Source: Burkholderia pyrrocinia (lineage in GTDB: Bacteria > Pseudomonadota > Gammaproteobacteria > Burkholderiales > Burkholderiaceae). From it: a stretch of DNA of 64,000 nucleotides. Below are positions 58,456 through 61,702 of the stretch, piece after piece. The stretch's first letter is position 1, and every line of letters begins with the position of its first letter. The notes beneath the pieces are model-generated. The model was given only the letters and a program-made list of their open reading frames with translations. It did not search any database and was not told where the DNA came from. A program made the position numbers and the translations under genes. The stretch lies in assembly GCF_003330765.1 (NCBI RefSeq), contig NZ_CP024903.1, positions 2,294,001 through 2,358,000 of the forward strand, read 5' to 3'.

Positions 58456-59337
58456 TTACAGTCCGAGCGCGGACAGGTCCAGCTTGCCGTCCTTCATCGG
58501 CGGGCACCAGAAATACGCGCCCGTCAGCGGCCGCGTGAAGCGGAACAGGCCGTCGACGATCCCGTCGTCCGCGCCGCTCATCCGGCGCATCTGCACGTCG
58601 AACGCGCGGAACGAGCAGCCGAACGCGACGAAATAGAGGCCCGCGCGGCGCGCGTCCGACCACGGCGACGAACGGCGCAGCATGAACGCCTCGGGCTCGA
58701 AGCTTTCCTGCGCGGTGCGCTTCACGTGCGCGAACTCGGGCGCATCGTCGAGCTCTTCGTTGTCCGAGCGGCGGCGCCCGATGATGTTGTCCATGTCGCC
58801 CGACGGAATGCGCTCCATCTGGTCGAAGTCGTGCAGCCATTGCTGGACCGCGACGAAGCTCGAACCGTCGAGCCCCGCGCCCTGCCCCGTCACGATCGCC
58901 GCGTCGACCGCGTCGCCGCCGGTCGGGTTCTCGGTGCCGTCCTCGTAGCCGGACAGGTCGCGATCGTTCGAATAGCGGAAGCCGTCGACGGCGTCCTGCA
59001 GCGCGAACGCCGGCGCCAGCGCGCGCTCGATCGCGCGCGCGCGCAGCACGATCTCGCCGCGGTCGTCGGCGCGCAGCCAGACCCACACGTCGGCCGGCGT
59101 CGCCGGCAGCGTGCGGTCCTTCACCGCGAACGCCGGGTAATCGGTCAGGCCCGGAACCGGGTGCCCGAGGTGCGCCGCCAGTGCATGTCCGAAACCGACG
59201 ACCGTGTCGCGCCCGTCGACGATCTCGCGCAGCGCGGCCAGCGCCGCCGCTACATTGCCGTCATTCGAAATCGTGAAAGTGAGGTATCGGGCCGCCGTGT
59301 CGATCGGAGCCAGAATGCCTTGCTGAACGTCGCTCAT
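58456..59337 (-). CDS. DyP-type haem peroxidase (YfeX-like)
   Basis: A 293-residue DyP-type peroxidase. The catalytic GxxDG-type motif is in LSGYEDGTENPTGGD (about residue 128-142), and the proximal haem-ligand His is expected in APEFAHVKRTAQ near 204; the late FVAFGCSFRAFDVQMRRM block is family-typical. It has no Tat or Sec signal, so it is cytosolic, as YfeX. It oxidises dyes and phenolic compounds with peroxide, or acts in haem handling. The start at 59337 has GAGGAAA at 5 bases. Confidence 0.93.
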   Translation of the reverse strand: MSDVQQGILAPIDTAARYLTFTISNDGNVAAALAALREIVDGRDTVVGFGHALAAHLGHPVPGLTDYPAFAVKDRTLPATPADVWVWLRADDRGEIVLRARAIERALAPAFALQDAVDGFRYSNDRDLSGYEDGTENPTGGDAVDAAIVTGQGAGLDGSSFVAVQQWLHDFDQMERIPSGDMDNIIGRRRSDNEELDDAPEFAHVKRTAQESFEPEAFMLRRSSPWSDARRAGLYFVAFGCSFRAFDVQMRRMSGADDGIVDGLFRFTRPLTGAYFWCPPMKDGKLDLSALGL

Positions 59338-59535
59338 CGTTTCCTCAGGAATGGTTCGGGGTGAATCTGTGAGGGCCGCGCCGGGACGCGCGCGCCGTCG
59401 CGTGCCGCGGACGCCGAAGTGTAATCGACGCGCTCGCCGGCCCACGCGCCGCCGCTTTGCGGAACGCCCGCGAAAGAAGGGCCGAAACCCTGAATACTAA
59501 CCGTATCGACGCTGCAACGCCGCATTCGTCAGACG

Positions 59536-59565
59536 TTGCAGCGCGCCGGACACTGCTGATAGAAT
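59536..59565 (+). promoter_or_regulatory. sigma-70 promoter of the ABC exporter transcript
   Basis: TTGCAG (59536-59541), an 18-base spacer and TAGAAT (59560-59565); matches are 4-5 of 6 at each element, which is good for this organism. Transcription would start near 59572, 47 bases before the leader ORF. Confidence 0.6.
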
Positions 59566-59618
59566 CTTTACACGTCTTTTCGGCGTCCTTTCAACCGTTC
59601 ACTTCAGGGGAGGTGCAG

Positions 59619-59669
59619 ATGTTCCGAATGCCAGCCACCTTCCCGAACGTGGTCCCACGGCGCTGCTGA
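59619..59669 (+). CDS. 16-residue leader peptide upstream of the ABC exporter
   Basis: ATG at 59619 opens the short frame MFRMPATFPNVVPRRC, ended by TGA at 59667-59669. The ribosome site AGGGGAGG is 5 bases before the ATG, far better than at most genes in this window. It lies 47 bases after the probable transcription start and 170 bases before the exporter start, and it contains three Pro and two Arg codons. This fits a leader peptide whose translation controls downstream folding. I do not recognise a family. Confidence 0.5.
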   Translation: MFRMPATFPNVVPRRC

Positions 59670-59730
59670 TCCAGCCCGCCGTCCGCGCAGGCTCCCGAGT
59701 TTTCCGCTAACCCGTCAGCCGCGCTTTTCC

Positions 59731-59780
59731 CGACAGCCCGTGTCGTTCCGCCCGCGTTTTCCGCGCGGCGCCGGCTGTTG
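59731..59780 (+). promoter_or_regulatory. mutually exclusive hairpins (attenuator-like)
   Basis: CGACA (59731-59735) can pair with TGTCG (59741-59745) around GCCCG. The same segment extended, CGACAGCC (59731-59738), can instead pair with GGCTGTTG (59773-59780; one G-U pair). The two folds exclude each other, and both lie between the leader ORF and the exporter start. Confidence 0.5.
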
Positions 59781-59839
59781 CGTTTTCGTCGTTCTCCGAA
59801 CCGGAAAGTCCCGTCGCGCGATGCGCCGGGCAACGATAC

Positions 59840-61702
59840 ATGACCCAAAAAACCTCCCGTCCGGGCGGCCACGCATTCCAGGCCGTCTTCGGCTTCACCT
59901 TCCGCTACTGGCGCAAGCAGCCGGCCCGCATCGCCACGGTCGCAGCCTTCGCGCTGCTCGCCGCGCTCGCCGACGTGCTCACGCCGCTGTTCGCCGGCCG
60001 CCTCGTCGATGCGCTGTCGACCGGCCTGACCGACCGCGCCGCCGCGTGGCATTCGGCCATCGTCGCATTCGGCACGCTCGCCGCGCTCGGCATCGGCGCG
60101 ACGGTGCTGCGGCAAGGCGTCTACCTGAACATCATCACGCTCACGCTGAAGATGATGAGCGAGATCGCCGCCGCGTCGTTCCATCGCGTGCAGCGCTTCT
60201 CGACCGACTGGCACGCGAACAGCTTCGCGGGCTCGACCGTGCGCAAGATCACGCGCGGGATCTGGGCGCTCGACCTGCTGAACGACACCGTGCTGATCGC
60301 GCTGCTGCCGTCGGTCACGATGCTGGTCGGCGCAACCGCGCTGCTCGGCTCGCACTGGCCCGTGATGGGGCTCGTCGTCGGCGCGGGCTCGCTGCTGTAC
60401 ATCGCGGTGACGGTCGCCGTATCGCTCGGCATCGTCGCGCCGGCCGCACGGCTCGGCAACCTGTGGGATACGCGCATGGGCGGCGCGCTCGCCGATGCCG
60501 TGAGCTGCAACGCGGTCGTCAAGGCGTTCGGCGCGGAAACGCGCGAGGAAGCGCGGCTCGCGCGCGTGATCGGCAAGTGGCGGCAGCGCACGCGTCGCAC
60601 GTGGGTGCGCGGCACGTTCAACGGCGGGCTGCAGGGCGCGATGCTCGTCGCGATGCAAGCCGCGATGATCGGCGTCGCGCTGCGGCTGTGGGCGAACGAC
60701 GAGGCAAGCGTCGGCGACATCGCGTTCGCGCTGACGATGTTCTTCATGCTGCAGGGTTACCTGCGCGACGTCGGCATGCACATCCGCAACCTGCAGCGCT
60801 CGGTGAACGACATGGAAGAACTCGTCGCGCTCGAACGCCAGCCGCTCGGCATCGACGACCATCCCGACGCGCCGGCCATCCGGATCGGGCAAGGCGAGAT
60901 CCGCTTCGAGCACGTGACGTTCCGCTACGGCAACCATCCGGTGCCGCTGTACGACGACTTCTCGATGCGTATCGCGCCCGGCGAGCGTGTGGGCCTGGTC
61001 GGCCACTCGGGGTCGGGCAAGACGACGTTCATCAAGCTGATCCAGCGCCTGTACGACGTGTCGGGTGGCCGCATCACGATCGACGGCCAGGACATCGCAC
61101 GCGTGCAGCAGGAGTCGCTGCGCAGCCAGATCGCGATCGTCCAGCAGGAGCCCGTGCTGTTCCACCGCACGCTCGCGGAAAACATCGCGTATGCGCGCCC
61201 CGACGCGAGCCGCGCGGACATCGAGCGCGCCGCGCGTCTCGCCAGCGCGCACGACTTCATCGTCGCGCTGCCGGACGGCTATGACACGCTCGTCGGCGAA
61301 CGCGGGATCAAGCTGTCGGGCGGCGAGCGCCAGCGTGTCGCAATTGCGCGCGCGTTCCTCGCCGATGCGCCGATCCTGATCCTCGACGAAGCGACGTCGA
61401 GCCTCGACAGCGAAAGCGAGCTGCTGATCCAGCAGGCGATGGAGCGGCTGATGGTCGGCCGCACGACGCTCGTGGTCGCGCACCGGCTGTCGACCGTGCG
61501 CGCGCTCGATCGGCTGCTCGTGCTCGATCGCGGCAAGGTGATCGAGGAAGGCAGCCACGACGCACTGATCCGCATCGACGGCGGCATCTACCGCCGGCTG
61601 TTCGAGCGGCAGGCGCTGGAGCTCGCGAAGGGGCTCGCCGATTCGCCGCGGCGCACCGCGGACGATGACGCCGGGCCGCTCGGCGAGCCGGCCGAGGCAT
61701 GA
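59840..61702 (+). CDS. ABC half-transporter (MsbA/MdlB-like exporter)
   Basis: A 620-residue protein with an N-terminal six-helix permease domain (about 15-320) and a C-terminal ATPase domain. The ATPase motifs are Walker A VGHSGSGKTTFIKL, Q-loop IVQQEPVLFHRT, signature KLSGGERQR, Walker B ILILDEATSSLDSE and the H-loop VVAHRLSTV. A dimer would export lipid, peptide or a drug-like compound. The ATG at 59840 is the natural start. It is preceded by a long leader with a mini-ORF and alternative hairpins, so translation or transcription control is likely. Confidence 0.9.
   Translation: MTQKTSRPGGHAFQAVFGFTFRYWRKQPARIATVAAFALLAALADVLTPLFAGRLVDALSTGLTDRAAAWHSAIVAFGTLAALGIGATVLRQGVYLNIITLTLKMMSEIAAASFHRVQRFSTDWHANSFAGSTVRKITRGIWALDLLNDTVLIALLPSVTMLVGATALLGSHWPVMGLVVGAGSLLYIAVTVAVSLGIVAPAARLGNLWDTRMGGALADAVSCNAVVKAFGAETREEARLARVIGKWRQRTRRTWVRGTFNGGLQGAMLVAMQAAMIGVALRLWANDEASVGDIAFALTMFFMLQGYLRDVGMHIRNLQRSVNDMEELVALERQPLGIDDHPDAPAIRIGQGEIRFEHVTFRYGNHPVPLYDDFSMRIAPGERVGLVGHSGSGKTTFIKLIQRLYDVSGGRITIDGQDIARVQQESLRSQIAIVQQEPVLFHRTLAENIAYARPDASRADIERAARLASAHDFIVALPDGYDTLVGERGIKLSGGERQRVAIARAFLADAPILILDEATSSLDSESELLIQQAMERLMVGRTTLVVAHRLSTVRALDRLLVLDRGKVIEEGSHDALIRIDGGIYRRLFERQALELAKGLADSPRRTADDDAGPLGEPAEA

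Follow-up and report, generated by a model that had tools for sequence, protein, structure and literature searches.

Control by leader peptides is best known from Gram-positive resistance genes and from enteric metabolism, and in the tnaC and mgtL leaders the position of the leader ribosome governs the access of Rho. For ATP-binding cassette (ABC) exporters, an example is BmrC/BmrD of Bacillus subtilis, which is preceded by a short translated open reading frame (ORF), bmrB, and by stem-loops, with alternative stem-loops and a terminator acting there according to the cited text (PMC4191407). In ermC, the leader ermCL and local RNA structure lie before the main gene, and a switch exposes the Shine-Dalgarno (SD) sequence (PMC10219788). 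A different arrangement has been described for genes 38 and 25 of phage T4, where a hairpin between the SD sequence and the AUG cuts their spacing from 22 to 5 and from 27 to 11 nt (PMC3014915). Here, we describe the leader of an ABC exporter gene in a 64,000-nt stretch of Burkholderia pyrrocinia DNA (contig NZ_CP024903.1, positions 2,294,001 to 2,358,000; the window), in which a conserved, presumably translated upstream ORF (uORF) and a series of hairpins precede the exporter start codon. No description of this leader was found in the literature searched (mainly open-access main texts), and the leader region in the window, like that in nine relatives, had no match to a curated Rfam family. 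The elements of the leader and the gene that it precedes are as follows, in window coordinates.

59607-59615, + strand: SD sequence of the leader ORF, GGGGAGGTG, conserved in 46 Burkholderia; also the 5′ arm of helix P0
59619-59669, + strand: leader ORF of 16 codons, MFRMPATFPNVVPRRC, plus TGA (ATG at 59619, TGA at 59667-59669)
59636-59644, + strand: P0 3′ arm, formed by leader codons 6-9 and complementary to the SD sequence of the leader ORF; P0 passed the arm-swap test
59657-59682, + strand: hairpin P1, spanning the leader stop codon; passed the arm-swap test
59685-59724, + strand: hairpin P2; the P2 region passed the arm-swap test
59731-59780, + strand: hairpin P3 (CGACAGCC..GGCTGTTG), paired in 100% of cells in 46 Burkholderia, with one-sided changes only
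59774-59795, + strand: linker rich in pyrimidines, at -66 to -45 relative to the exporter ATG, overlapping the end of P3
59803-59808, + strand: putative distal SD-like motif of the exporter, GGAAAG, invariant in 46 Burkholderia
59810-59830, + strand: hairpin P4, separating the exporter ATG from the distal SD-like motif; passed the arm-swap test
59840-61702, + strand: ABC exporter of 620 amino acids with ABC_membrane and ABC_tran domain matches, a probable ExsA relative

An initial annotation of the window proposed a 16-residue ORF with the region's best ribosome site before the exporter, and we confirmed its ATG, its stop codon and its SD sequence. Of 65 Burkholderia genomes searched at the DNA level, 54 matched; of the 54 loci aligned, 53 keep the 16-codon frame, its length and its stop, and the lack of conservation in close relatives that the annotation had named as grounds for abandoning the proposal was not seen. 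The exception is a partial match (L134, in genome G040), in which only 83 promoter-side bases match and neither the leader nor the exporter N-terminus was found; this locus looks decayed. For a broader survey, 229 loci were entered; 10 without an exporter N-terminus were removed, as were duplicates and loci with <340 nt of upstream sequence, and 190 were used. In 53/53 Burkholderia DNA-match loci, a short ORF with an ATG start and a good ribosome site lies 120-340 nt 5′ of the orthologous exporter, and the same kind of SD-led short ORF is present in 112 of the 137 other non-duplicate exporter loci (which include Burkholderia outside the DNA-match set), compared to dinucleotide-shuffle expectations of 0.4 of 53 and 2.0 of 137. 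This filter demanded an ATG start and an SD score of at least 5, and the SD scores of 5-9 of the counted ORFs thus arise by selection. The leader ATG stands a median of 221.5 nt from the exporter ATG. A differing short ORF, with GGGAGG or something like it as its ribosome site, usually precedes the exporter orthologues of Paraburkholderia, Caballeronia, Mycetohabitans, Achromobacter, Bordetella, Pigmentiphaga, Mesorhizobium, Aminobacter, Devosia, Sinorhizobium and Rhizobium. These comparisons strongly support a conserved leader ORF, presumably translated, before the ABC exporter.

The peptide encoded by MFRMPATFPNVVPRRC uses three Pro and three Arg codons; the annotation had the Pro count right and gave Arg as two. 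Leader peptides were surveyed without an Arg filter in the 190 loci plus five plasmid loci, four of which have a leader. Among 65 non-redundant peptides from this cross-genus set, the commonest length is 16 residues, and Arg occurs within the last three residues in 52, where the Arg frequency of 0.091 in the peptide body would predict about a quarter. When 29 diverse leaders, again without the Arg filter, were anchored at their stop codons, amino acid identity was 0.143 in the real frame vs. 0.111 and 0.121 in the other frames, a modest effect. A frame test, the ribosome-occlusion folding and the first arm-swap tests used leaders preselected for Arg in the last six residues. In four Burkholderia, codon 9 changes from Pro to Ser and the SD sequence changes with it in a way that compensates; RNA pairing thus dictates Pro at codon 9, in part at least.

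That pairing is P0, which joins the leader ribosome site to the leader's own codons 6-9. Arm-swap tests were passed by P0, P1, the P2 region and P4, and the result holds when the tests are repeated without the Arg filter. A P3-like stem was seen in other genera as well, in a search that itself selects for pairing. The leader RNA is a series of local hairpins, P0, P1, P2, P3 and P4, that are able to coexist. P0 and P4 were absent from the initial annotation, which had instead read the region as two mutually exclusive hairpins; the alternative pairings that we tried showed neither cross-genus covariation nor arm-swap support, and that part of the proposal is not supported.

P4 lies at about -33 to -10 from the exporter ATG (86 loci), and in 71 of 79 non-redundant loci 5-10 nt separate its last paired base from the ATG; P4 is the kind of conserved hairpin, set at constant spacing before the start codon, that a split ribosome site calls for. 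Its folding z was -1.60, while two control windows gave 0.06 and 0.04, the strongest P4 figure quoted being the best of several P4 centers. P4 occurs in alpha- and betaproteobacteria, with stems that vary in sequence while the pairing is kept, and by eye a GGA-type motif stands directly 5′ of it in many relatives, not all. The linker that precedes the distal motif is A-poor (mean T.38, C.33, G.20 and A.09 in 61 loci), and its pyrimidine tract may aid ribosome landing. Four exporter relatives of the phylum sample (L238, L239, L240 and L242, family f88) have no SD-led ATG uORF by the filter, yet carry GGAG and a P4-like hairpin before the ATG, and P4 may therefore be older or wider than the leader.

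The leader is closely tied to one gene. When the 5′ module was cast as a covariance model (A2, R1), it matched 50 of 249 family genomes, at a single place in each, and by coordinate comparison 49 of these 50 places are at the exporter; many matches exist by construction because R1 was built from 42 of the studied leaders. Eleven of 349 genomes matched in the phylum sample, eight at the exporter and three borderline. The exporter itself is patchy at E ≤ 1e-180, being found in 119/349 family, 9/349 order and 32/398 phylum genomes. In one locus (L294, genome G277) the leader is retained before an exporter that aligns in three pieces and so may be broken.

The window exporter did not reach the cut-off of any of the 25 NCBIfam models listed. 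Its counterpart in Sinorhizobium meliloti (L260), an ABC gene ~70% identical to it, lies near exoZ, galE and queDE and has the leader MQAFSSPYGADPRS; from this position we infer that the gene is exsA, and the window exporter is probably a relative of ExsA. The exsBCD genes of the exs cluster correspond to queCDE (PMC3568095); exsA-I are placed on pSymB in a text that cites the publication in which exsA was named as a gene for an ABC transporter (PMC12239276), and ExsA has been linked to succinoglycan transport (PMC1403797). In S. meliloti, queE is adjoined by a second ABC transporter gene (L260, 6800-7791).

The conservation of both an ORF and a folded RNA points to a switch that may link protein synthesis to the amount of exporter. 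As the best explanation of the whole, we tentatively favor, with a likelihood that we place a little short of even, a regulatory leader that acts in cis, at the level of translation, on an ExsA-type exporter and is made up of the uORF, P0-P3 and a split ribosome site bridged by P4. In this model, P0 would close the leader SD sequence, and ribosomes entering the uORF would open P0. On the Arg-rich codons ahead of the stop, these ribosomes would lose speed or stall and would open P1, and the length of their stay would decide whether the RNA beyond is protected (from Rho, RNase or refolding) and can be used to translate the exporter. The exporter SD sequence would be the GGA motif 5′ of P4, with P4 folding out the spacer and bringing SD and ATG within initiation distance. 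The signal would be anything that slows a ribosome there, such as a toxin directed at translation or low charged tRNA-Arg; the annotation had named Pro, Arg, a drug or Mg as candidate signals. A broader claim, that such leaders form a class with two gates (a uORF site hidden by P0 and an exporter site bridged by P4), that the Arg-rich peptide or its codons do the sensing and that the module has moved together with one exporter family through alpha- and betaproteobacteria, is one that we regard as doubtful.

Several observations weigh against the regulatory model. By the filter, 25 of 195 exporter loci have no ATG leader, although eight of these (L089, L098, L099, L105, L203, L207, L210 and L211, one Paraburkholderia clade) have a leader that starts with TTG and are counted as lacking because the filter demands ATG. 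Within Burkholderia the variable columns of the uORF number 6, 4 and 7 by codon position; with no third-position bias there, the claim for the peptide rests on the cross-genus pattern. A simulated ribosome at any leader codon shifted the mean accessibility of the exporter SD sequence by at most 0.017, and when placed at the third codon before the stop it raised accessibility in 16 and lowered it in 2 of 116 leaders (116 of 158, Burkholderia having been thinned). At the exporter start, the distal window had an SD score of 3.38 vs. 3.05 for length-matched shuffles across the 190 loci, a modest enrichment, and the proximal window scored 1.97 vs. 2.18, hardly below chance; matches of at least four bases were found distally in 67/190 and proximally in 27/190 loci. 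With P4 strong and the distal enrichment modest, the GGA motif and P4 are therefore plausible, not proven, as a split, hairpin-bridged ribosome site of the exporter.

Control at transcription would account for part of the same evidence. The annotation took the leader to be an attenuator that switches between two exclusive hairpins, and a classical arrangement of this kind, with an intrinsic terminator as in trp or bmrB, would agree with the short leader ORF and its ribosome site, with the presence of hairpins, with the pyrimidine-rich tract after P3 and with the precedent of an ABC exporter in BmrCD (PMC4191407). However, terminator-like sites were not enriched (24/61 loci vs. 21.3 expected, and one site between 58800 and 60200 vs. 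1.1 expected), the alternative pairings lack covariation and the ribosome's position has hardly any effect, and we consider this reading very improbable. The same lack of any terminator excess suits Rho-dependent attenuation, in which a ribosome lingering where the uORF ends would shield a C-rich stretch and Rho would otherwise stop transcription before the exporter. C exceeds G in the leader (means of.37 and.27 at -200 to -70, and of.33 and.20 in the linker, for 61 loci, figures that stand without a genome-wide baseline), and the Arg-rich end of the leader adjoins the stop. The P2 and P3 region is nevertheless strongly folded, which is unfavorable for Rho loading, and the conserved P4 is left unaccounted for; we consider Rho-dependent attenuation unlikely.

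Two further readings stay at the level of translation. An attenuator of the ermC type, with the exporter SD sequence sequestered by an upstream strand until a leader ribosome stalls, would fit the low mean predicted SD accessibility (0.25) and the UUUCC 5′ of P3, which can pair with GGAAA of the distal SD sequence in 97% of cells in Burkholderia, with no two-sided changes. Across genera this pairing gave Z between -1.9 and 0.2, and sequestration by a conserved upstream strand found no clear support in the cross-genus pairing tests; we consider this mechanism improbable. Alternatively, the uORF may be translated without sensing anything, merely stabilizing the mRNA or priming ribosomes, and the loosely kept peptide, in which nonsynonymous changes are common within Burkholderia, is consistent with this. 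The Arg-rich end beside the stop across genera, the P0 pairing with the leader SD sequence and the near-exclusive link to one gene argue against it, and we rate a non-sensing uORF as quite unlikely. We place most weight on translation-level control, as in the favored regulatory leader, or on control through Rho or decay, and little on a terminator switch.

Transcription of the leader probably starts from the following promoter, identified by its sequence.

59536-59565, + strand: putative promoter, with -35 TTGCAG at 59536-59541 and extended -10 TGATAGAAT at 59557-59565 (spacer of 18); the -35 is weak

RNA polymerase would be expected to start near 59572, giving a leader of ~270 nt. The annotation called the promoter clear: the extended -10 is indeed present and its block is mostly kept across the Burkholderia alignment, whereas the -35 is weak and a consensus promoter scan at 9 of 12 reported no promoter at the locus, so that "clear" was slightly too strong. 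An inverted repeat, CGCTGCAACG / CGTTGCAGCG, at 59510-59543 overlaps the -35, and an accompanying block, ATTCRTCAGACRTTGC, is largely conserved in Burkholderia; the repeat is a possible operator. A divergent gene for a DyP-type peroxidase (58456-59340, - strand) shares the intergenic region with the leader.

If the model is correct, the uORF leader that ABC exporter genes share in Burkholderia, Achromobacter, Bordetella and rhizobia would reveal how these bacteria sense translation stress and adjust export, and a hairpin-bridged ribosome site found across two classes would turn a phage curiosity into a general device.

In general description, the mgtL, tnaC and speFL leaders resemble this one in having a Pro- or Arg-containing peptide and control near the stop codon. 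For exsA of S. meliloti, where L260 carries a leader, the portions of PMC1403797, PMC12239276 and PMC3568095 drawn on here mention none. The ermC/ermCL system shares with the Burkholderia leader a uORF and local RNA structure before the main gene, but the SD-exposing switch of the cited account (PMC10219788) has no clear support here. Compared by description, bmrB likewise combines a short translated ORF with stem-loops before an ABC exporter, whereas neither the alternative stem-loops nor the terminator that act there (PMC4191407) find support in the Burkholderia leader. T4 genes 38 and 25 are phage genes for which the cited text mentions no uORF (PMC3014915), whereas the present case is a bacterial exporter with a uORF upstream and a modestly supported distal SD sequence; what they have in common is a hairpin between SD and AUG, as we propose for P4.
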